The notes under the pieces were generated by a model. The model ran no database searches. It was not told the origin of the DNA and saw only the letters and a program-made list of their open reading frames with translations. From Phycisphaerae bacterium (GTDB lineage: Bacteria; Planctomycetota; Phycisphaerae; Phycisphaerales; SM1A02), in NCBI GenBank assembly GCA_016873315.1, contig VGXL01000005.1, forward strand, positions 1 through 49,513: 49,513 nt of DNA. The letters are read 5' to 3'. Of the stretch, positions 3,001 through 34,032 are shown piece by piece (the first letter of the stretch is position 1; each line of letters opens with the position of its first letter). Both the position numbers and the translations under genes were made by a program.

Positions 3001-4294
3001 TTTGGATCCGATCGCGCGGGTGATCGGCAAGTTCATAGAGCACATCCCAGAAGCACAGCACGCGCTGACCTTGGGGCCGTTGCAGCAACTGCTTTGCGAT
3101 CGCCGCAGGATCACTCGCGACCGGGCTGCCAGGCAAGCCAGCCCAGACGAATGGCGCCACAAAGTCCACACCGTCGACCGACACCGGCGACCACGCGAGC
3201 GCGCGGAACCGCGCCGACTTGGGATCGCTGGGCACGGCTTTGGGGCGAACCGCAAACGACACTGGCGCTGGCACCTTGGTGCCGACGACCGTCGATCCCG
3301 TTGTGCCAGATGAACCCTTCGATCCGCTCGATCCGCTCGATCCGCTCGAACCGCTCGATCCACCGACGGTGCCGCTCGATGTTGAGGTGCCCGTGGCCAC
3401 CGTGGTCGTGCCCGTCGATGTCGTGGCAGGCTTGGTTGCGGTGCCACCGCTGACGGTCATGCTGGGCTTCGACGCGCCGGTCGTCGTGCCGGAAACGACG
3501 GGTTTGGCAACACCATTGGGGTCCGTCACGCGATTGGTCGCTCCGCCGCTGGATGTCGAGGTGCTCGTCGGTGCGGTGGCGAGCGTCGTGCCGACGGTCT
3601 TGGCGGTCACCGGTCGGCGAACGCTGGAGTTCTTGGAGTCAACTGGCGTGGGAGGCGTCGGAGCTGCGCCGTTCGGCAAGGCCGTGCTCCCCGAACCCTG
3701 CGCATTCAGACCTGCCGCGAGGACGCTCGCGTCCGGAGCCGTCGGTGCATTCGGTGCGATCGGCAACTTCGGAGTCGATGCCGCTGCTGCGGGTGCGGTG
3801 GCCGGCGGAACCACTGGAGCCGTCGGTGCATTCGGTGCGATCGGCAACTTCGGAGTCGGTGCCGCTGCTGCGGGTGCGGTGGCCGTCGGAACCACTGGAG
3901 CCGTCGGTGCATTCGGTGCGATCGGCGACTTCGGCGTCGATGCCGCCGCTGCGGGCGTCAAGGCTTTGGGCACTGGAAGCGCCTTGGGCACTGGAAGCGC
4001 CTTGGGCACTGGAAGCGCCTTGGGCACTGGAAGCGCCTTGCCACTGCTCGGTACCGAGGTCGGCGTGGTGTTGTCAGGCGCCTCGACTGGCGGCAAGGGC
4101 TTCGTCCCGCCGGCCGATCCATCCGCTGCCTGCACGGGTGCTGACTGCTTCACCAAACTCCGCTTGGCCTTGCCCTTGTGCATGGTCGGTGTGCGCGTGG
4201 CTTGCTGCGCGCTTGCCGCGCTGGTCGCCATGTGGCCCGCCACGAATGCGAGCACGGTCATCACGACACTCCAGCGGATGGTCATTCGTTGCAT
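1..4294 (-). CDS. Very large exported protein with low-complexity repeats and a C-terminal heparinase II/III-like domain (partial)
   Basis: The frame is open from the ATG at 4294 to the window edge, giving about 1431 residues with the C-terminus missing. Residues 1-30 look like a Sec signal peptide (MQRMTIRW..., hydrophobic core, cleavage near SAAS-AQ). Residues about 86-110 are four perfect 6-residue repeats (ALPVPK) and about 106-187 three 27-residue Pro/Ala-rich repeats. A Ser/Thr/Gly linker follows, then an unrecognised globular region at about 360-800 (contains VLVLDYERG). A second Ser/Gly/Thr linker (about 811-903) leads to the last domain. This has EGFSYAAQ and GHAHRDQG (His at about 1352 and 1354), the pattern of heparinase II/III-type polysaccharide lyases, preceded by an alpha/alpha-toroid-like helical stretch. 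By family it would cleave an acidic polysaccharide outside the cell; the substrate cannot be read from sequence. It lies 128 bases downstream of the NagB/PIG-L fusion gene on the same strand. Confidence 0.85.
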   Translation of the reverse strand, partial: MQRMTIRWSVVMTVLAFVAGHMATSAASAQQATRTPTMHKGKAKRSLVKQSAPVQAADGSAGGTKPLPPVEAPDNTTPTSVPSSGKALPVPKALPVPKALPVPKALPVPKALTPAAAASTPKSPIAPNAPTAPVVPTATAPAAAAPTPKLPIAPNAPTAPVVPPATAPAAAASTPKLPIAPNAPTAPDASVLAAGLNAQGSGSTALPNGAAPTPPTPVDSKNSSVRRPVTAKTVGTTLATAPTSTSTSSGGATNRVTDPNGVAKPVVSGTTTGASKPSMTVSGGTATKPATTSTGTTTVATGTSTSSGTVGGSSGSSGSSGSSGSKGSSGTTGSTVVGTKVPAPVSFAVRPKAVPSDPKSARFRALAWSPVSVDGVDFVAPFVWAGLPGSPVASDPAAIAKQLLQRPQGQRVLCFWDVLYELADHPRDRIQTPDGKPTEIRSPFMDNGIEATTQRVNTILAGIKRAGATVDVLVLDYERGFTWDPRFGSLDNDPRWIGLARELGFSDLRGMDAARIARWNEVMGRYFDDAISRSTDGPLQSFFPGARLANFDSFASTPMAPVLGSDGTPFLRASVTDRNGALIGLGSHDSSPFFGVLLPRTAQQRLDGVNPIGQDAFAAARLELHRSRAMRRSAGRAQMPWIAPRSLDVGTVVAQAAPGTAAPMRSTPYWDEMVLQLGLHGAEDFLYWNPEGALAPQASVAALPGDHQIFDGLLEELNRTLGQQPGNSVYREQPGFDDRILATGRDDGESIVWRFTFDPGIESARVFFTDGTSLVVNREKDRPGAWIAHPKTKSLVFDADNTAPVFEIVAARASGTSGTTSTATKSPSGASDLGADASTGANRGAGTGSTVATSGSSSSSGGTTGSSGSTVGSGALASGSGSNGATDASTGATGSSASGSAGNTLESARAVLIAQLTSETRQRAAEAMGTLFTSRRTSDWAGGLSYRQNRWASMLQQAASTSSLSSYLAEVNAEGAKVLLIDPALYIRPQTLEEIHPQLLDARAAGAGQNQVACALAYADVNQSALLQQRGVILAIAAAQTGDPALVARAVDMLRAFVGHNPLQRPGTTLTSSAMVMPEGGDGVWLATAWGIDGIVGMMSALGDRVPADLRADLEVLLRREVRTICADWADQRPWFVRMRAFNSNQWMEPAAALIKACLFLGDPALLPAYNLGVESLAASLSVHGSDGAYLEGFSYAAQSLGTVFDIIDDMRAMGDQRCSEFGFTANNWRWLMHTVMPGGQVVNCYDSGRSALPDWGRAAPMPHFGIVAAGSNLEALSNMAWMFPQGRGDLPGLRYASAVAGLGGPASMTLPTFAYFPSQQVATWRSAWERPSEPSRAFGVWVRGGALLDGHAHRDQGQVSVYSGDRPILIDCGSDYSYPNQEATLAAAAGHGIMQVGALSPRHKAISAPMVVRRLDDQAGSVLVDSTAAY
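3735..3977 (-). repeat. Three 81-bp tandem repeats (27 residues each) inside the large lyase gene
   Basis: Copies begin at 3735, 3816 and 3897, with a period of exactly 81 bases. Copies 1 and 2 are nearly identical, while copy 3 diverges at its far end. Each encodes a Pro/Ala-rich segment with the core LPIAPNAPTAP. The repeats extend the low-complexity stalk that follows the signal peptide. Confidence 0.9.
3966..4037 (-). repeat. Four perfect 18-bp tandem copies inside the large lyase gene
   Basis: The 18-base unit TTGGGCACTGGAAGCGCC (plus strand) occurs four times without a mismatch at 3966, 3984, 4002 and 4020. It encodes Ala-Leu-Pro-Val-Pro-Lys on the minus strand. The unit is a multiple of three, so copy-number change would alter the length of the Pro-rich stalk without breaking the frame. 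Confidence 0.95.
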
Positions 4295-6429: not shown

Positions 6430-7590
6430 TCACAAGGTGCGGGCAGCCGAGAGAAAACGGTCGTGCGACGCTCGCACCTGATCCCAGGTGTCGCCGCCGA
6501 ACTTCTCAAGGAACGCCCGGGCGATCTCGAACCCCACCGCATGCTCCATGACGACGCTCGCTGCGGCCACGGCGCTGATGTCGCTGCGTTCGTACTGGCT
6601 GCGCGTGGCGGCCTTCGTGCGCAGGTCCACGCTCGGCAGGCCCTGAAGCAGCGTGGCGATCGGCTTCATGGTCCCGGTCACGACCACGGGCATGCCGTTG
6701 GTCATGCCGCCCTCAAGGCCGCCGGCATGGTTGGTCGGTCGCAGATAGCCAAGATGTGGTTCGCCCGATCGCGATGCATCGAACGCGATCGGATCATGCA
6801 CCTGACTTCCGAAGCGCAGCGCACACTCGCGCCCCAAGCCGATCTCCACGGCCTTGAAGGCCTGGATTCCCATGACGGCCATGGCGAGGCGCGCATCGAG
6901 ACGCTCGTCCGCAGCGACGCACGAGCCAAGTCCGATCGGACAACCGAGAACATGCACGCGACAGAGTCCGCCGACTGTGTCCTGAGCCACCTTCGCAGCG
7001 TGAATGTGTTCGACCAAGCGTGCATCGGTCGTCGGGCACGGACACGCCACCTGCGCTCCATCACGCGCCGCACGCAACGCCGCAAGCGACGCCGCCTCGA
7101 CTTCGATGTTCGCAAACGCATCGATCGCACCGAGCACGAAACCGAACGCCTCGATACCGACCTCGCGCAGCATGCAGCCCGCGAGCGCCCCGGCCGCCAC
7201 GCGCGCGGCAGTCTCGCGCGCGCTCGCGCGCTCAAGTGTTCCGCGGCAATCGTTGGTGAGCCACTTCACGCTGCCAGCCAAGTCCGCGTGGCCTGGCCGC
7301 GGCTGGTGAACGGGCGGCGTCCGCACCGGATCATCGATCCGGCTGTCGGCATTCACGATCTCCAGCGCGATCGGCGAGCCGAGTGTGATCCCCTGCCGCA
7401 CACCCGACAGAATCCGCACGCGGTCAGTCTCGATGCGCTGACGCGCACCGCGACCGTAGCCGCCCTGCCGACGCGCGAGTTCCGCATCAATCCAATCGGT
7501 GTCAACGCGCAGTCCGGCCGGCAGCCCCTCGACCAAAGCGATGAGCGCGGGACCATGAGACTCGCCAGCAGTGCGGTAGCGAAGCGGCAT
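6430..7590 (-). CDS. aroC: Chorismate synthase
   Basis: The 386-residue protein matches the family in length. Family signatures are visible: GESHG at residues 9-13, RPGHAD at 98-103, RASARETAARVAAGA, and ERSDISAVAAASV near the C-terminus. It uses reduced FMN to convert 5-enolpyruvylshikimate-3-phosphate to chorismate, the last step of the shikimate pathway, in the cytoplasm. The aroDE fusion gene lies about 0.5 kb upstream on the same strand, separated by a small ORF and a terminator, so aroC probably has its own promoter. No clear Shine-Dalgarno precedes the ATG at 7590. The stop is 15 bases before the NagB/PIG-L gene. Confidence 0.97.
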   Translation of the reverse strand: MPLRYRTAGESHGPALIALVEGLPAGLRVDTDWIDAELARRQGGYGRGARQRIETDRVRILSGVRQGITLGSPIALEIVNADSRIDDPVRTPPVHQPRPGHADLAGSVKWLTNDCRGTLERASARETAARVAAGALAGCMLREVGIEAFGFVLGAIDAFANIEVEAASLAALRAARDGAQVACPCPTTDARLVEHIHAAKVAQDTVGGLCRVHVLGCPIGLGSCVAADERLDARLAMAVMGIQAFKAVEIGLGRECALRFGSQVHDPIAFDASRSGEPHLGYLRPTNHAGGLEGGMTNGMPVVVTGTMKPIATLLQGLPSVDLRTKAATRSQYERSDISAVAAASVVMEHAVGFEIARAFLEKFGGDTWDQVRASHDRFLSAARTL

Positions 7591-25683: not shown

Positions 25684-26997
25684 ATGCCCACGCCAGCTCG
25701 TCGCACCAGCACCCGATCCACGTCGTCAAAGCGGGTCACGAAGCCCGCGCTCGCAACGCGCGCACCGACGCTCAGCCCTTCGCAACGCGCCACAATGCAG
25801 CGTTGGTTACTGGAACTCACCGACCTGCCCACCGCTGCAGGCCGTGAGCACCGCGTGATGGCGTGGGTGGATCAGTGGCTTGCCGCGCGTGCAGACCGGC
25901 TCGCCGTGGCTCGTGATGATGCGGGCAATTACCTGATCACGCGGCGCGATCTGCCACGCGGCGCGCAGCAGGTGCTCATGACGGCGCATCTGGATCATCC
26001 GGCGTTCGTCATCACGCGCATCGAGCGCGGCCGCGTGCATCTGGAGTTTCGGGGCGGCGTGCTCGACGCGTACTTCGCGGGCGCACGGCTCGACGCGATC
26101 GATGCAGGCGATGCGCACCATGCGTTGCGCATCGATCGCGCCGACCTCAAGGCGACGCCCTTCAAGACTGTGATCGCCGTGCCCACGGGCACCGCTGCTG
26201 CCAAGGCTCGAGCGCTGCGTGACCTTGCCGTGGGCGACATCGCCCGCTGGCGTTGGTCAGGTTCGCGCGGTCCCGAGCGGGCGCATGTGGCGACGCACCC
26301 CTTGCCGGCACTCATGCCGGGTGGGCGCACGAGGCGTGCATCCGTCCTGCGCACCCACGCGTGCGATGACCTGGCCGCCGCAGCCATCGCACTCGCGGTG
26401 CTCGACGCAACGCTCGCGCGCAAGGACATGGCGCATCTGGGCCTTGTGCTGACCGTGGCCGAGGAAGTGGGCTTCATCGGCGCGATCCATGCCGCACGCC
26501 ATGGCTTCATTCCAAAGCGCGCGCTGCTCCTGAACCTCGAGAATTCTCGCAGCTATCCGCACGATTCGCCGATCGGTGCTGGCGCGATTCTGCGCATCGG
26601 CGACCGAGCCACCGTCTTCGACGCGGGCATCGTCAATGCGCTGTCCGCCGAGTTCGGGCGACTCACCAAGGCCGATCCGGCGTTCCGTTGCCAACGCAAG
26701 CTCATGCCTGGCGGGTGGTGTGAGACCACCGCCTTCGGTTGCTACGGCTACCGCAGCGTGTGCCTGTGCCTGCCGCTGGGGAACTACCACAACATGGAGC
26801 GACTCGAGCGCGTGGAGACTGGCTCGGGTCCGGCGCGCATGGGTCCGGAGTTCGTCTCGATGGACGACTGCGCGAGTCTGGCCGCCATGCTGCTCGTCGC
26901 TGCGTCCATCCTCGCCCGGCCCATCGCCTGGGATGGCAAGAAGACCATGGAATCTCTGTACGCCCAGAAGAAGCGGGTGCTCGCCCCGCAGCCCTGA
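25684..26997 (+). CDS. M42-type zinc aminopeptidase / endoglucanase-like peptidase
   Basis: The product has 437 residues. Metal ligands of the M42/M28 co-catalytic fold are visible in order: LMTAHLDHPAF (His), HACDDLAAAA (Asp), VAEEVGFIGA (Glu-Glu), NLENS, and a late His in LGNYHNMERL. Between the first and second ligand lies a longer insertion, as in the PDZ-like dimerisation insert of M42 enzymes. It probably removes N-terminal residues from peptides in the cytoplasm. The first 35 residues are Ser/Thr/Arg-rich and not conserved in the family. An internal ATG (25795) could be the true start. Confidence 0.82.
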   Translation: MPTPARRTSTRSTSSKRVTKPALATRAPTLSPSQRATMQRWLLELTDLPTAAGREHRVMAWVDQWLAARADRLAVARDDAGNYLITRRDLPRGAQQVLMTAHLDHPAFVITRIERGRVHLEFRGGVLDAYFAGARLDAIDAGDAHHALRIDRADLKATPFKTVIAVPTGTAAAKARALRDLAVGDIARWRWSGSRGPERAHVATHPLPALMPGGRTRRASVLRTHACDDLAAAAIALAVLDATLARKDMAHLGLVLTVAEEVGFIGAIHAARHGFIPKRALLLNLENSRSYPHDSPIGAGAILRIGDRATVFDAGIVNALSAEFGRLTKADPAFRCQRKLMPGGWCETTAFGCYGYRSVCLCLPLGNYHNMERLERVETGSGPARMGPEFVSMDDCASLAAMLLVAASILARPIAWDGKKTMESLYAQKKRVLAPQP

Positions 26998-27068: not shown

Positions 27069-28367
27069 ATGGTGGAGCCCATGCCCACGCCGTTCCAACC
27101 CGGCGACGCGTTGAGCGACGAAGACCTCGCGCTCGCCATCGAGCTCGATGCGCGTGGACTCGCGGGCATGGCAGCGGCGGCGATGCTGCAGCGTTGGATC
27201 CCATCCATCGGCTCCCCAGGCGATCGACCGATGGCGGCGCTGGCGGCCGCAGAAGTTTGCATCGCCTGCGCGATTCGTGATGGCGGCGAGCCGTTGGAGG
27301 CGGCGCAGCAACTTGCCGCAGCGCACCCCGCGTTCGCGGATGACTTCATGGCCGCGGCGCTCGGATTCGGGATGCCGGAAGGCGACCTGCCGGGCGACCT
27401 CGTTCCTGGCGCGATCGTGCTCGGTCGATGGCGCGTCGACCGCGTCGTCGGAAGCGGCGCGACAGGAACCGTGGCGTTGGCCGTCGATGCGTTGCTGGGC
27501 TCGCCAGCGCAGCCTCGACACGTTGCGCTCAAACGCTTTGAATCCGACGCCACCGGACTGGCTCTGCGCCATGCCCGGCACGAACTGTCCACTTTGCTGT
27601 CACTTCCTGAAGGTTGTGGGCCCAAAGTCATTGGGTTCCACGCCGATCGTGCGGGGAGCGCCGTCCTCGTCACGGCATGGGAACCATCGTCACCGCCGAA
27701 TCACCTTGCCGCACTGCCCGAAGCGCTCTGGACCATGGACCGCATCCACGCGTGCGGCATCGCGCACGGTGATCTCAAGCCCGATCATCTGCGGCTGCGC
27801 GACGACGGCTCCGTCTTCCTGATCGACTGGGGGAGCGCGGGTCCTGCAGACCATGCAGGCAGGACGCTGGATGCCGATCGACTGGCGAGCATCGTGCGCA
27901 CGATCGGCAGTTCCACCGGCACCGCACCGTGGATCGTTGCACCAGCGGCGTGGCTCTGCACGCGCGACCAACTCGGTCTGGCAGCGACCTGGCTCGCTGC
28001 GTGCGCTCCACGGCGCCACGCACGGCGCTTGCTTCGACCGATCGTTCCTGCAGCAGCCGCCATCCTGATCGCTGCTCTGTTCGTCTGGTTGAGCGGTCCA
28101 TGGAACCGCACGCCCGCTGAAGCGGCGATCGATCGTCTTCGAGCTCGCGGCAACTTGATCGAGGTCGTGCAAGGGCCCGACGGCGCACCGGCTGGCGCGT
28201 GGCTCGCGTGGCCACGGTTCGATCCCGCGGTTCCCGCGCGCGAACGACTGGTGTTCTGGATCGACTTCAAGGACGGTCTCGAAGTGATTTCACGCAAATC
28301 TCCGGGAAGCCTGTCACCGGCAACATGGCCCGAGTCATCCTCCCAAAGTCCCGCAGCACCCCAATGA
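27069..28367 (+). CDS. Membrane-anchored Ser/Thr kinase-like protein
   Basis: The 432-residue protein has an Ala-rich helical N-terminus (about 12-105) and a compact kinase-like domain (about 115-320). The glycine loop is VVGSGATGTVALAVD (Gly 128, 130, 133), the ATP Lys is in HVALKRF (155), and the catalytic loop is HGDLKPDH (233-240). The metal-binding motif is DWG (253-255). Deviations from the usual HRDLKxxN/DFG are Arg to Gly, Asn to His and Phe to Trp, and no APE motif is seen, so activity is uncertain. One transmembrane helix (about 323-343) leads to a roughly 90-residue outer part. The stop overlaps the next start as ATGA. Start may be ATG 27069 or 27081. It heads a three-gene operon with an ECF-like sigma factor. 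Confidence 0.8.
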   Translation: MVEPMPTPFQPGDALSDEDLALAIELDARGLAGMAAAAMLQRWIPSIGSPGDRPMAALAAAEVCIACAIRDGGEPLEAAQQLAAAHPAFADDFMAAALGFGMPEGDLPGDLVPGAIVLGRWRVDRVVGSGATGTVALAVDALLGSPAQPRHVALKRFESDATGLALRHARHELSTLLSLPEGCGPKVIGFHADRAGSAVLVTAWEPSSPPNHLAALPEALWTMDRIHACGIAHGDLKPDHLRLRDDGSVFLIDWGSAGPADHAGRTLDADRLASIVRTIGSSTGTAPWIVAPAAWLCTRDQLGLAATWLAACAPRRHARRLLRPIVPAAAAILIAALFVWLSGPWNRTPAEAAIDRLRARGNLIEVVQGPDGAPAGAWLAWPRFDPAVPARERLVFWIDFKDGLEVISRKSPGSLSPATWPESSSQSPAAPQ

Positions 28368-28873
28368 TCCACGAACGACCAGCTCGATCGATTCGCCCCT
28401 TCACGATGGCAGCCCTGCTCGTGGGTGCCGTGCTCACCGCGATCGTGCTCCTTGTGCCACGCGCGACCGTGACGGCCGATGCACCGCAGCTCATCGTCGG
28501 CAGTCAGACATTCCGCGCCGAGCCCAGCACGGTCGAGTTCATGGATTGGCTCGCCACGCGCGAGATGCTGCGCGGCGGCTTGGGCTCCAGCGACGGTTCG
28601 CTTCGCGCCCTCCTCATCGACCGCCGGCTCGGACCATCGATCCAGATCCCGGCAGGTGGACTCCGAGCGCGCCGGTTCCAGGTCAATCAGGACGGCACCA
28701 TCCTTCTCCATGAGGAGCCCGTAGACGACGCGTGCTCCGTGGTGCTCGTTCCCGACGAGCGCGATCCCAACCTGCTCATGGTGCTCTGCGAAGGGCCGTG
28801 CTCCAGTCCGTCGGGTCGATGCGTTCTGCGGTTCGATCCGGAAGCGCTGCGATTCGAATGCGCGTGCCCATGA
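28364..28873 (+). CDS. Small single-span membrane protein between kinase and sigma factor
   Basis: The 169-residue protein starts at ATG 28364, overlapping the kinase stop, and ends overlapping the sigma factor start (ATGA both times). A short basic N-terminus (MIHERPARSIRPF) precedes one hydrophobic helix (about 14-36), so the rest should be outside the cytoplasm. That part is a strand-rich domain ending with a cysteine cluster (LCEGPCSSPSGRC..., then ECACP, five Cys). No family is recognised. Its position suggests a sensor or anti-sigma-like partner, but it lacks a cytoplasmic domain large enough for a classical anti-sigma factor. Confidence 0.75.
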   Translation: MIHERPARSIRPFTMAALLVGAVLTAIVLLVPRATVTADAPQLIVGSQTFRAEPSTVEFMDWLATREMLRGGLGSSDGSLRALLIDRRLGPSIQIPAGGLRARRFQVNQDGTILLHEEPVDDACSVVLVPDERDPNLLMVLCEGPCSSPSGRCVLRFDPEALRFECACP

Positions 28874-29406
28874 GCCAGTCGCAGGAGCACCAAGGTCCGG
28901 CGGGCGATGCGGCGCGCCGCGCGCTGGCCGATCGCCTGATGACTGCGCGCACGCTCATGCTCGCGCGCATTCGCCAACGGCTCGTGCGAGCTGGTCTGAG
29001 TTCGACCCAGGCCGAGGACATCTTCTCGACCACGCTGCGCCGGGCCGATGCCGCCGCAGCGGCCGGGCGATTGGTCGCGGAAATCGATGACCAGCATCTG
29101 CTCGCCCTCGCCACCGCGATCAGCCGCAATGCCGTGCGCGAAGAGATCCGGCGGGAACGACGCAATCGAGAGCGTCAAGATGGCGCCGCCCGTCAGGGAT
29201 CAGCGGGTTCCGAACCACCGCAGCCCACAGCCGACGATGCGCCCGAGGATCCGTTTCTGATCCTGAATGGGATCGATGTCGACGTAGTGCAACTGCGCCT
29301 GCGCGGAGCGAGTTGGAGCGTGATCGCGGAGCAACTCGGCATGACGGCCTCGGCGGCGCACCGTCGCTACTTCCGTGCCATGCAGCGCCTTGCCGCAGGC
29401 GGGTGA
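28870..29406 (+). CDS. ECF-like RNA polymerase sigma factor
   Basis: The 178-residue protein has an N-terminal helical part (about 15-100) resembling sigma region 2. An Asp/Ser/Pro-rich linker follows (about 105-130), then a clear region 4 helix-turn-helix at about 138-175 (DVVQLRLRGASWSVIAEQLG, then TASAAHRRYFRAMQRLA). Region 2 is weakly conserved: the usual aromatic -10 recognition motif is not obvious, so the protein could also be a sigma-like regulator. ATG 28870 is fixed by the ATGA overlap with the preceding gene. It would redirect RNA polymerase to an unknown gene set under control of the upstream membrane proteins. Confidence 0.75.
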   Translation: MSQSQEHQGPAGDAARRALADRLMTARTLMLARIRQRLVRAGLSSTQAEDIFSTTLRRADAAAAAGRLVAEIDDQHLLALATAISRNAVREEIRRERRNRERQDGAARQGSAGSEPPQPTADDAPEDPFLILNGIDVDVVQLRLRGASWSVIAEQLGMTASAAHRRYFRAMQRLAAGG

Positions 29407-29448: not shown

Positions 29449-31311
29449 ATGACTTGCGACCCAGCCGAACCCGTCGCGCGCGCATTGCGCGCGGCGATCG
29501 CCGCCGAGTGCGGCATTGATCCTGCGAACGCGGACCCCCGCGTGCAGCCTGCCGCGAATCCGACCTTCGGCGACCTGCAAGCGAACTTCGCGATGGCGCT
29601 CGCCAAGCAGTGCGGTCGCAATCCGCGCGATCTGGCGCAGGCGGTGATCGCGCGCTTGGGCGATGGACTCTCCGACCGCTGCGAACCGCTGCAGGTCGCA
29701 GGACCGGGCTTCATCAACATCACGCTGCGGCCCGCTGCGCTCGGCGGCGCACTTCAGGCGTTCGATGCGCCAAACCTTGGCATCGAGCCCCCTGCCGACA
29801 CGCACACCTGCGCGGTTGACCTGTGCGGTGTGAATGTGGCCAAGCAGATGCACGTCGGCCACCTGCGCGCCACGATCATCGGCGACACGATCGCACGCAC
29901 CTATGAACGCCTGGGCTGGCGCGTCTTCCGGCAGAATCACTTGGGCGACTGGGGCTTGCCGATCGCGATGACGCTCGCCAGCCTTCGTCGGCGCGGGACG
30001 GATCTGGCCACACTCACACTGGACGACCTCAACGCCGCATATCGCTCAGCGCAGGCCGAAGGCCGCGACGACGAGGCCGGCCTTGCGGCCGTGCACGCGT
30101 GTGGCTGCGGTCCACATCGGCTCGCCGAACTCGAGACTCAACACGACGGCGCCTCGGCAGCGATCGCCGATGCGAAGTCGACGCTCGTGCGGTTGCAGGG
30201 CGGCGATGCGTCGCTCGTGCGCGACTGGGAGCGCATCATCGATGTCACCATGCGCGAGGTCTACGCCGCGGCGGCACTCCTCAATGTGCGACTTGACCAG
30301 GCGAGCGAAAAGGGCGAGAGCAGTTTCCGCGATGAGCTCGCACCGGTCGCTGAATCGTTCGAACGCGCGGGCCTGGCGAGCATCGATCAAGGCGCGCTGG
30401 TCGTGCGCTATCCAGACCGCGAGCGGCCGATGCTCATCCGCAAGTCCGACGGCGCGTTCCTGTACGCGACTACGGATTTGGCAGCACTGCGCTTCCGCAT
30501 TCAGGGTCTGGGTGCCGAACGCGTCATCTATTGCGTCGATGCGCGCCAGCGCGATCACTTCAAAGATGTCTTCGATGCCGTGCGCATGATCGGCTGGACC
30601 AAGCTCACGCGCCGCCGCGACGGACGCGACACAGCGGTCGAGTGCCAACTCGTCCATGTCCCCTTCGGCACGGTGCTCGGTGCGGACAAGAAACCGCTGA
30701 AGACGCGCAGCGGCGAGAACTTCACGCTCAAGGCGCTGCTCGACGAGGCGATCGACCGCGGTGTGCGCGAAGTGACCGCCCGCGCGGCCGATCCGGCCAG
30801 CCCCACGCACGGCATGAGTGCTGACGAGCTTCGCGCCATTGGCCAAGCGGTCGGCATCGCTGCCGTGAAGTACGCAGACCTTGGCGGCGAAGTCTCGCGC
30901 GATTATGTGTTCGACCTCGACCGCATGGTCGCGTTCGAGGGCGACACTGGTCCGTACTTGCAGTACGCGCACGCACGCATCGCGAGCATGCTCGCGAAGG
31001 CCGGCGATGCTGCTGCGTGGACCGACGCGCCGATCGATCCCGCAGCGCCCGAAGAAAAGGCGCTGGGCTTTGCGATCCTGCGCTACCCCGCCGCGGTGCG
31101 CAGCGCTGCGGATCACTGCGCGCCAAGCACGATCTGCGCCTACCTCTACGCACTGTCAAACGCGTTCAACGCGTTTTACCAAGCGTGTCCGGTGCTCAAG
31201 TGCGACGACGCGCGGATCCGCGCGAGCCGACTGCGCCTGGCGCATCTCACGCGTCGCACGCTCGCCGACGGCCTGTCGCTTCTGGGAATCGAAGCCCCTT
31301 CGCGCATGTAG
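29449..31311 (+). CDS. argS: Arginyl-tRNA synthetase
   Basis: The 620-residue class I synthetase charges tRNA-Arg. The N-terminal Add-1 domain (1-115) is followed by the signature AKQMHVGHLRATIIGD with HVGH at 135-138. The KMSKS-equivalent loop is modified to DKKPLKTRSGENFTL, as is usual in bacterial ArgS. A C-terminal DALR-type anticodon-binding domain (YDLGGEVSRDYVFD region onward, QYAHARI) completes the protein. ATG 29449 fits the family; the frame is open slightly upstream. It is convergent with upp, with 11 bases between the stops. Confidence 0.97.
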   Translation: MTCDPAEPVARALRAAIAAECGIDPANADPRVQPAANPTFGDLQANFAMALAKQCGRNPRDLAQAVIARLGDGLSDRCEPLQVAGPGFINITLRPAALGGALQAFDAPNLGIEPPADTHTCAVDLCGVNVAKQMHVGHLRATIIGDTIARTYERLGWRVFRQNHLGDWGLPIAMTLASLRRRGTDLATLTLDDLNAAYRSAQAEGRDDEAGLAAVHACGCGPHRLAELETQHDGASAAIADAKSTLVRLQGGDASLVRDWERIIDVTMREVYAAAALLNVRLDQASEKGESSFRDELAPVAESFERAGLASIDQGALVVRYPDRERPMLIRKSDGAFLYATTDLAALRFRIQGLGAERVIYCVDARQRDHFKDVFDAVRMIGWTKLTRRRDGRDTAVECQLVHVPFGTVLGADKKPLKTRSGENFTLKALLDEAIDRGVREVTARAADPASPTHGMSADELRAIGQAVGIAAVKYADLGGEVSRDYVFDLDRMVAFEGDTGPYLQYAHARIASMLAKAGDAAAWTDAPIDPAAPEEKALGFAILRYPAAVRSAADHCAPSTICAYLYALSNAFNAFYQACPVLKCDDARIRASRLRLAHLTRRTLADGLSLLGIEAPSRM

Positions 31312-32016: not shown

Positions 32017-32583
32017 TCACGCGCCAGGAATCCACGGCGTGTCGGGCACGCCGCGCTCCTTGTTCGCTCGCCGGGCCATCGCGAAGAAGAGATCGCTCAA
32101 GCGATTCAGATAGATCAGGATCGCTTCGCCCACCGGCTCCGCGCGATGGAGACTTACGACCAGGCGTTCCGCACGACGGCACACGGTGCGGGCCAGGTGC
32201 ACGCGCGCGGCAAGGTCACTGCCCCCAGGCATCACGAAGGCGCGGATCGGGTCGTTGCCGGCCTCGACCTCGTCGATCCAGCCCTCCGCCTCGCGAACAT
32301 GGGCGTCGTTGATCCGGACGATCTTGGACTGCTGCCGAGCCCCCTCTGGGGTCGCTAGGTCAGCGCCGATGTCGAAGAGACGGGACTGGATTTGGCCAAA
32401 CATGACCAGGAGCCGGGCGTCGAAGCTCCTGGCCGGCTCACAGGCGCTTGCGCACAGGCCGACCACGGCGTTCAGCTCATCGACCGTGCCGTACGCCTCG
32501 ATCCGGGGGTGGTCCTTGCCGACCCGCGCCCCACTGAAAAGGCCCGTCGTGCCGTCGTCTCCGGTCTTGGTGTAGAGCTTCAT
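32017..32583 (-). CDS. Cob(I)alamin adenosyltransferase (PduO/MMAB type)
   Basis: The 188-residue protein has the PduO-type signatures: KLYTKTGDDGTTGLFSG at the N-terminus (ATP site), VDELNAVVGL, FVMPGGSDLAARVHLARTVCR and ERLV, and LNRLSDLFFAMAR. It transfers the adenosyl group of ATP to reduced cobalamin, forming adenosylcobalamin. GAGGA 6-7 bases upstream of ATG 32583 supports the start. It is transcribed away from the prepilin cluster. No B12-dependent enzyme lies in the window. Confidence 0.96.
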   Translation of the reverse strand: MKLYTKTGDDGTTGLFSGARVGKDHPRIEAYGTVDELNAVVGLCASACEPARSFDARLLVMFGQIQSRLFDIGADLATPEGARQQSKIVRINDAHVREAEGWIDEVEAGNDPIRAFVMPGGSDLAARVHLARTVCRRAERLVVSLHRAEPVGEAILIYLNRLSDLFFAMARRANKERGVPDTPWIPGA

Positions 32584-32937
32584 GCGGTCGTCCTCGATGA
32601 TCGGGTCGCCGAGCAGCCGACACCCAAGAGCAGGTTATCGATGCCCGCGCATGCCCAGTCATCGGTCCGTTCAGTTCCACAGACAGAAACACGGATTTTG
32701 GCGAAATCGCCCGCAACTTGCCGTATAGTCCCAATGCGGCTCCGCCATGGTCCTTGCCAAGGGTCCATGTCGGGTGGGTTCGCAGGTCAGCCGTCCACTT
32801 CTCACGACCTGCAGCACCGAAGGATCGCCCCACGATCCAAACCATGCGTGCACCGAGCATCATGCCCGGTCCACGCTTGCGGTGTCCCGACAGTCGGCAA
32901 TACCGGCCTCGTCGGCTGGTCCAGCAAGGAGCCTCCC
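32584..32937. other. 354-base intergenic region upstream of the prepilin cluster
   Basis: This divergent spacer must hold the promoters of the adenosyltransferase (minus) and of the first prepilin gene (plus). A TATAGT at 32724-32729 is a good -10 hexamer, but the best upstream match (TTGGCG at 32698) is 20 bases away, so a standard promoter is only suggested. If it is used, the prepilin message would have a leader of about 200 bases. I see no ORF with a credible ribosome binding site. Confidence 0.4.
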
Positions 32938-34032
32938 TTGAAGCAACGCAACGCATTCACCATCGTCGAACTGCTCGTCGTCGTGGCGATCATCGCTCTG
33001 TTGATCGCCATCCTGCTGCCTGCTCTCGGTCGCGCGCGCGATGCCGCGCTCGTCACCCAGAGCTTGGGCAATCTCCGAAACCTCGCAGCTGCCAACGCCA
33101 CCTACGGCGCTGACTACGCGGACCGCCAGTTCACGCTCTCCGGCGATGACTTCGGTCTCGCGGCTGGCAACTGCGGTACCTACCTCAACACCATCGGTTG
33201 CCCCGGCCAAGCGATCCTCGGCTGGGATGACTCGGGTGGCCTGTGGGGCTACTGGCTCGGCGGCGGCCAATGCCCGACGAACTACCCCGGCAACTGCGGC
33301 AACTGGATCGTGAACTGGCCCAACGAGTGGAACTTCACGAACGGCTTCTTCGGGTACTACCGCCTGCCGAACTGCAAGCCCTTCAACACCTATGTCAACG
33401 GTCGTTTCTATGACCGCGCGTTCGTGGCCCCGAAGGACAAGCTCACCATGGAGCGCGCCGAAGAAGGCATGGGCGACCCCGGAGAATTCACCATTCTTCC
33501 GCTGGCACCCGGTCAGGTCGTCTTCTCGACCTATGTCTGGAGCCCCGCCGCGCTGTGGAGCCCCGATGTGATGTCGCGCAATGGCTTCAAGCAGCCGAGC
33601 ACGCTGCCCGGTGCATGGAAGTGCCCGTCGCAGGGCCAGGCCAAGTACTCGGAACTCAAGACCCGCATGATTGAGCTGTACTGGCTGCAGAATCAAGACG
33701 GCGGTCCGACCAACCCGGGCTTCTCGGGCGGTTACACCCCGTGGTACTTCAACCAGGGCAACTCCAGCACGCCAAACGCCATGTTCTACGACGGCCACGT
33801 CGCTGGCATCGCCGTTTCGGAAGTCATGGACGCCGACCGCCGCGCTCGCGCGGGCTGGAACGGCGTTGTTGGCGCGCCGCCGACGAGCGGCCGCGGCCTG
33901 TGGCACACCGGCACCCCGCTGGGCGCGAACGGCTTCTATCAGCAGCTCTCGTTCGACATGCTTGCTGATACTTCGTTCCACATGCTCACGACCGACGGCA
34001 TCCTCGGTCGCGATGTCATGGGTGCCAAGTAA
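32938..34032 (+). CDS. Prepilin-type (pseudopilin-like) protein, paralogue 1 of 3
   Basis: The start is TTG 32938, with AAGGAG 6 bases upstream; no ATG fits. The 364-residue product has a type IV/II prepilin signal RNA^FTIVELLVVVAI (cleavage before Phe, Glu at +5 of the mature protein) and the long hydrophobic helix. The body is Cys/Trp/Gly-rich (GGGQCPTNYPGNCGNW). PNAMFYDGHVAGI is the DG motif of the planctomycete H-X9-DG prepilin family, with Asn in place of the His. The C-terminus (LWHTGTPLGANGF...) is almost identical in the next two genes. It is probably processed by a prepilin peptidase and assembled at or through the envelope. A strong terminator follows. Confidence 0.9.
   Translation: MKQRNAFTIVELLVVVAIIALLIAILLPALGRARDAALVTQSLGNLRNLAAANATYGADYADRQFTLSGDDFGLAAGNCGTYLNTIGCPGQAILGWDDSGGLWGYWLGGGQCPTNYPGNCGNWIVNWPNEWNFTNGFFGYYRLPNCKPFNTYVNGRFYDRAFVAPKDKLTMERAEEGMGDPGEFTILPLAPGQVVFSTYVWSPAALWSPDVMSRNGFKQPSTLPGAWKCPSQGQAKYSELKTRMIELYWLQNQDGGPTNPGFSGGYTPWYFNQGNSSTPNAMFYDGHVAGIAVSEVMDADRRARAGWNGVVGAPPTSGRGLWHTGTPLGANGFYQQLSFDMLADTSFHMLTTDGILGRDVMGAK

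Follow-up and report, generated by a model that had tools for sequence, protein, structure and literature searches.

An ECF sigma factor encoded together with a membrane kinase and a small membrane protein in Phycisphaerae: a variant of kinase-linked sigma signalling

Kinase-linked ECF sigma factors

The closest described relatives of the locus reported here are ECF sigma factors that work with a Ser/Thr kinase. EcfP/PknT of Vibrio parahaemolyticus and EcfK/PknS of Xanthomonas citri both belong to group ECF43, in which the sigma factor becomes active only once a threonine in its region 2.2 has been phosphorylated by the partner kinase (PMC8999054; PMC13147305). In the literature consulted, the kinase-activated ECF sigma factors with a mapped phosphosite belong to this group. 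The sequence DxxDxxQE has been named as the polymerase-contact motif (PMC13147305), and in the other kinase-linked groups the acidic motif is kept, with Ser or Thr found in or around it (PMC8999054). A more distant point of reference is WaaP, an active kinase whose His168, located five positions beyond Asp163 of the HRD motif, is needed for growth (PMC6147952). The reviews of kinase-linked ECF groups that were consulted do not mention a reduced kinase or a small membrane protein of the kind described below.

Gene organization

The window is the whole 49,513-nucleotide stretch that was analysed, from a contig belonging to the 2.4 Mb genome of a Phycisphaerae bacterium. It contains three consecutive genes on the same strand, which encode a membrane kinase, a 169-residue membrane protein (the middle protein) and a 178-residue sigma factor.

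27081..28367, +, membrane kinase gene, 428 aa (Pkinase match; AF2 model resembles PknB)
28364..28367, +, ATGA overlap of kinase stop and middle-protein start
28364..28873, +, small membrane (middle) protein gene, 169 aa (no Pfam family)
28870..28873, +, ATGA overlap of middle-protein stop and sigma start
28870..29406, +, ECF sigma factor gene, 178 aa (TIGR02937, E 2.4e-6; hhalign to ordinary ECFs)

An alternative in-frame ATG for the kinase lies at 27069, but comparison with relatives favors 27081. The trio is flanked upstream by a peptidase gene (25684-26997), which we take to be M42-like, and downstream by argS, whose start we place at 29449. A scan of the locus for promoters and terminators gave nothing above chance, and an upstream block around ATTGCC is conserved in four congeners. 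Further along, the ORF at 32392-34032 contains the prepilin-type N-terminal motif FTIVELLVVVAIIALLIAILLPAL, of a kind that is typical of planctomycete pseudopilin-like proteins.

Both ATGA junctions, as originally described, are present and are conserved in the four trio-bearing congeners (G002, G004, G007 and G008). The accompanying proposal that overlap fixes the ratio of the proteins over-reads them, since in a second genus (G052) gaps of about 37 and 107 nt stand where the first genus has overlaps, with AAAGGAGG before the middle gene. All three genes are under purifying selection, with dN/dS of 0.14-0.27 between G000 and its relatives (0.14-0.26 for the kinase).

Distribution of the trio

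The gene order recurs in related genomes, both in congeners and in a second genus, as the original prediction required. The same kinase-middle-sigma order is found in the four congeners just named, although in G002 the kinase runs past the contig end; argS adjoins in all four, as does the peptidase wherever the contig extends far enough. In G006 only the sigma end is seen, at a contig edge. The site is empty in G003, where 40 bp separate the peptidase stop from the argS start, compared with 2451 bp in the window; this empty interval lies at L059:1935-1980. The peptidase-argS interval is variable in other respects, with other sequence beside the peptidase in G004, G005 and G006 (L043, L060 and L061) and a fragment of a middle-type protein within it in G004 (L043:9690-10160).

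In the second genus the order is kept in G052 (L044) and G858 (L156). It is also seen in L072 and L073, and in L071 with the kinase start off the contig; all three most closely resemble G052. The order in G850 (L154) is kinase-sigma-middle, and in G945 and G844 a kinase is present near the contig end. The named relative records are metagenome-assembled genomes, several of them lake-derived, judging by their titles.

Among 397 genomes of the class, profile searches at E 0.01 detect the middle protein in 6, four of these convincingly; among 392 genomes of the phylum, searches at E 0.001 detect it in 2. It was found in two genera only. A class-wide match in G236 falls in a long unrelated frame and was discarded. 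Given this distribution, the module is young, mobile or frequently lost.

Gene number also varies within the trio. In G008 the interval between sigma and argS encodes two additional membrane proteins of the middle type, each with a Cys tail (L042:5983-6465 and 6459-6965); the middle-protein family thus expands in place. In L073 the kinase and middle protein are followed by two tandem sigma genes of the trio family (2429-2950 and 3088-3612).

The sigma factor

The third protein was originally called sigma-like, with a clear region 4 and a weak region 2. The first part of that description stands, and the second holds only against Pfam, which detects region 4 alone in the window protein.

29008..29043, +, region 2.2 motif QAEDIFSTTLRR, aa 47-58
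29029..29031, +, Thr54, proposed phosphorylation site, at the acidic place of the QE pair
29275..29394, +, region 4, aa 136-175

TIGR02937 aligns to residues 29-175 at E=2.4e-6, with a score of 27.3 bits that is below the NCBI cut-off of 42.9, and it matches 25 of the 29 sigma relatives gathered. When the alignment of these 29 proteins (mean column identity 38%) is matched by hhalign to six ordinary ECFs encoded in the same genome, the score is 80.4 over 161 columns. Region 2 on its own gives 38.9, whereas none of 40 shuffles exceeds 13.0, and region 2 is thus found by profile comparison, as the original prediction also required. The NCBI model TIGR02984 scores 17.6 bits over region 4 only, and no PDB sequence was found with the sigma profile at E 0.1. 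With regions 2 and 4, no region 3 and a length of 178 residues, the protein is a genuine ECF (group 4 sigma-70) factor.

A link to kinases extends well beyond the trio. A Ser/Thr kinase gene lies beside 18 of the 21 non-trio sigma relatives, on the same strand in 16. In the trio itself a kinase gene adjoins the sigma factor and there is no recognizable anti-sigma factor, which is the arrangement of a kinase-linked ECF; the predicted unit of kinase, small membrane protein and ECF sigma factor is in this sense conserved and real.

Within region 2.2, AEDIFSTT of the window protein aligns to ADDVFQDT of an ordinary ECF, so that Ser53 and Thr54 occupy the place of the Q-D/E pair. Five other ECFs of the same genome have Q followed by D or E there (AADDVFQDTW, EAEDAAQDVF, DAEDACQEAF, DAEDIVQDAL and DAEDVVQDLC), and two further trio sigma factors read DADDIFSTTLRR and LADDIFSTTIRR. 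The position of Thr54 is near-invariant: it is Thr in 27 of the 29 sigma factors, which were gathered by similarity and hence are not independent, Ser in one and Ala in one. The sole Ala belongs to the sigma factor of L107, near which no kinase was found. The neighboring Ser53 is Ser in 26 of the 29. A near-invariant Thr in place of the acidic residue of QE suggests activation by phosphorylation. Conservation alone is no proof of a phosphosite, since Arg57, Arg58 and Asp60 nearby are equally conserved. Moreover, the window sigma factor keeps the acidic pair E49 and D50 in its QAED, and it may for that reason bind polymerase without being phosphorylated.

The kinase

The kinase consists of an N-terminal helical domain, a reduced catalytic domain, one transmembrane helix and a small outer part.

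27081..27380, +, N-terminal helical domain, aa 1-100 (common to full-length sigma-linked kinases)
27393..28010, +, reduced kinase domain, aa 105-310 (Gly loop, VALKRF with K151, E168, HGDLKPDH, DWG; no APE)
27765..27788, +, catalytic loop HGDLKPDH, aa 229-236 (His236 stands where Asn is usual)
27825..27833, +, DWG metal-binding motif, aa 249-251
28044..28094, +, transmembrane helix, aa 322-338 (AF2 helix; hydropathy)
28116..28292, +, ectodomain, aa 346-404 (homologous to that of the middle protein by hhalign)

The single transmembrane helix and the altered motifs, namely HGDLKPDH, DWG and a missing APE, were all read correctly at the outset. The protein has a kinase fold: its AF2 model (mean pLDDT 77) matches PknB with Z 15.4 and rmsd 2.8 over 196 residues, and all nine trio kinases match Pkinase of Pfam (best E 9.5e-10). 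The core of a Hanks-type Ser/Thr kinase is in place, with the Gly loop, the Lys of VAIK, the alpha-C Glu, the HRD Asp and the DFG Asp; the catalytic-loop Asn and APE of that class are missing. His stands at the Asn position in all nine trio kinases and in four further relatives, and this change could alter metal binding, whereas the non-trio sigma-linked kinases compared retain Asn. The DWG of the window is DFG in the second genus.

An HMM of the N-terminal domain matches full-length sigma-linked kinases with E down to 4.4e-12, and on this comparison the trio kinase is related to the full-length sigma-linked kinases of Phycisphaerae, of which it is a reduced form. Relative to them it has no APE, a short C-lobe, and about half of the stretch between DxG and the membrane missing (59-64 residues in the trio, 118-158 in the full-length kinases where measured). 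Shortened kinases also occur outside the trio, since two sigma-near kinases, at L122:4768-6703 (G050) and L123:3022-5553 (G052), also lack APE. Both keep the catalytic Asn and are possible intermediates.

The middle protein

The middle protein has, as predicted, a tiny cytoplasmic end and a Cys-rich outer part. Its AF2 model places about 12 residues inside, followed by one transmembrane helix, an outer domain of the order helix-strand-strand-strand-strand, and a Cys tail.

28400..28453, +, transmembrane helix, aa 13-30 (AF2 helix)
28523..28714, +, ectodomain, aa 54-117 (AF2 model; hhalign to the kinase ectodomain)
28733..28867, +, C-terminal Cys box (Cys124, 142, 146, 153, 166 and 168)

The six cysteines are invariant in a first alignment of eight members. 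In a larger one of 11 members, each is found in at least 10, L071 and L073 being the exceptions. In L071 (709-1203) most of the Cys box is absent, yet kinase and sigma factor are present, and in L073 the box is partly damaged. No Pfam family matches the protein. Foldseek and VIA-align searches with its model found no match above Z 2.7, which is not proof of a new fold. Lufaxin, a weak match of the Cys tail in the PDB sequence search (E 0.014), was set aside. A lipoprotein-like protein of G339 (L065:1207-1959) shows weak similarity to the middle protein (E 1e-3); neither a sigma factor nor a kinase adjoins it in the available stretch.

The outer domains of the middle protein and the kinase are homologous. 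Their profiles give an hhalign score of 30.9, and the best of 60 column shuffles reaches 14.0. When more sequences are included, the score is 31.9 and the best of 100 shuffles 17.9; control profiles from the kinase N-domain, kinase lobe and sigma factor score 11-16. This homology rests on the combined profiles, since group-by-group comparisons are weaker: 24.2 versus 19.1 in the second genus, and not detectable in the first. The AF2 models of both ectodomains show the same order of structural elements. A role as a membrane anti-sigma factor was considered for the middle protein and rejected because its cytoplasmic tail is only some 12 residues long, and Pfam offers nothing in its support. With an outer domain homologous to that of the kinase and a six-Cys tail, the protein is, by sequence, probably a co-receptor.

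Proposed mechanism and its alternatives

Our preferred reading is a kinase-controlled ECF sigma switch, in which an active kinase phosphorylates the sigma factor and the middle protein serves as a second receptor subunit; we regard its chances as evenly balanced. The kinase and the middle protein would sit in the membrane with their homologous outer domains in the periplasm, probably paired, the middle protein contributing a disulphide-type Cys tail. A signal from outside would alter this pairing and so switch on the cytoplasmic kinase. The reduced Hanks-like domain would then phosphorylate region 2.2 of the sigma factor, most likely at Thr54, where the phosphate would restore the negative charge of the ordinary QE pair, needed to hold the beta' subunit of RNA polymerase. 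Thus modified, the sigma factor would transcribe its regulon. An active kinase acting on Thr54 is favored because the trio fits the kinase-linked groups whose acidic motif contains or adjoins a Ser or Thr. Against such a switch stand the loss of the activation segment and APE, the peptide-holding parts of protein kinases, and the damage to the Cys box in L071 and L073.

The original prediction was instead that the kinase may be a pseudokinase that holds the sigma factor; on this reading it would bind the sigma factor at the membrane without phosphorylating it, until a signal frees the sigma factor. Its altered motifs, with DWG, His for Asn, no APE and a short C-lobe, speak for this, as do co-expression through gene overlap and the acidic QAED, with which phosphorylation might be unneeded. 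However, a pseudokinase is marked by loss of the Lys, the HRD Asp or the DFG Asp, and all of these are retained: wherever a trio kinase sequence extends over them, K151, E168, H229, D231, K233, D249 and G251 are conserved, at identities down to 32%, and H229, D231, K233 and H236 are invariant in all nine. WaaP, moreover, is active with His in that place and with a replaced GHI subdomain (PMC6147952), and Thr54 is near-invariant. Given invariant catalytic residues in a kinase under purifying selection, a pseudokinase appears the less likely reading, and as an anti-sigma device we think it improbable.

Two further schemes keep an active enzyme. The kinase might, like WaaP or the kinases of lanthipeptide synthetases, act on a small molecule or another protein, the sigma factor being governed by its amount or by another route. 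Eight of the nine trio kinases match the Pfam Kdo/WaaP family (best E 3.6e-7; these are E-values rather than gathering scores, and the window kinase is the one without a match), the lanthipeptide-synthetase kinase CurKC is among the best Foldseek matches of the model, and peptide-holding elements are absent. The N-terminal domain and the genomic setting nevertheless place the enzyme among sigma-linked protein kinases, and adjacency of a kinase to this type of sigma factor is a general rule in the class; a substrate other than the sigma factor thus seems to us unlikely. Alternatively, as a variant of the preferred switch, the middle protein may inhibit the kinase ectodomain, or act as a decoy, its loss turning the sigma factor on. 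Homologous ectodomains suit a competitor as well as a partner, and the middle gene differs in copy number at its own locus, with two extra in G008; all the same, we rate inhibition as having little probability.

If the kinase-controlled switch operates through Thr54, a class-wide set of kinase-linked ECFs in Phycisphaerae would use a position of region 2.2 other than that of ECF43. A reduced kinase active on the sigma factor would show a minimal protein kinase for one dedicated substrate, and the middle protein would be a receptor subunit with the same outer domain as the kinase itself, perhaps acquired by copying. The fullest form of the proposal, a minimal WaaP-like protein kinase that lacks an activation segment and acts on the Thr in the polymerase-contact QE pair, a receptor split into two homologous membrane subunits of which one carries the kinase and the other senses redox or disulphide state through its Cys tail, and a Thr-for-acid switch general in a large set of Phycisphaerae ECFs, is offered tentatively, and is more doubtful than the switch itself.

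Comparison with known systems

The trio resembles EcfP/PknT and EcfK/PknS in that an ECF lies beside a membrane Ser/Thr kinase, no anti-sigma factor is present, and a Thr of region 2.2 is the proposed switch. ECF43, however, is defined by replacement of DAED with an uncharged QTTA or STTA that carries the phospho-Thr, whereas the trio keeps an acidic QAED and has its Thr further along the motif, in place of the acidic residue of QE. It also differs in having a kinase without APE and with Asn changed to His, an extra membrane protein, and the kinase gene first. Compared by description, ECF59, the former ECF60, ECF61, ECF62 and ECF217 are similar in that they are from the same phylum and have a sigma factor beside a membrane kinase, with an acidic motif of region 2.2 that contains or adjoins Ser or Thr.

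With WaaP, the lipopolysaccharide heptose kinase, the trio kinase shares a replaced GHI subdomain and a His (H168 of WaaP) where Asn is usual, but WaaP is a sugar kinase and has no sigma factor partner. The full-length pairs of Phycisphaerae (among them L108, L110, L114 and L119) have the same sigma family, S-T in region 2.2 and the same N-terminal domain in the kinase. In contrast to the trio, they have APE, a large periplasmic part, the catalytic Asn and, mostly, sigma before kinase. The trio is therefore less distinct than first proposed, being a reduced derivative of the Phycisphaerae ECF and kinase pair. That pair is common, and what is new in the trio is a stripped-down kinase together with a middle protein that resembles a co-receptor; the trio is a variant of kinase-linked sigma signalling, built without a new principle.
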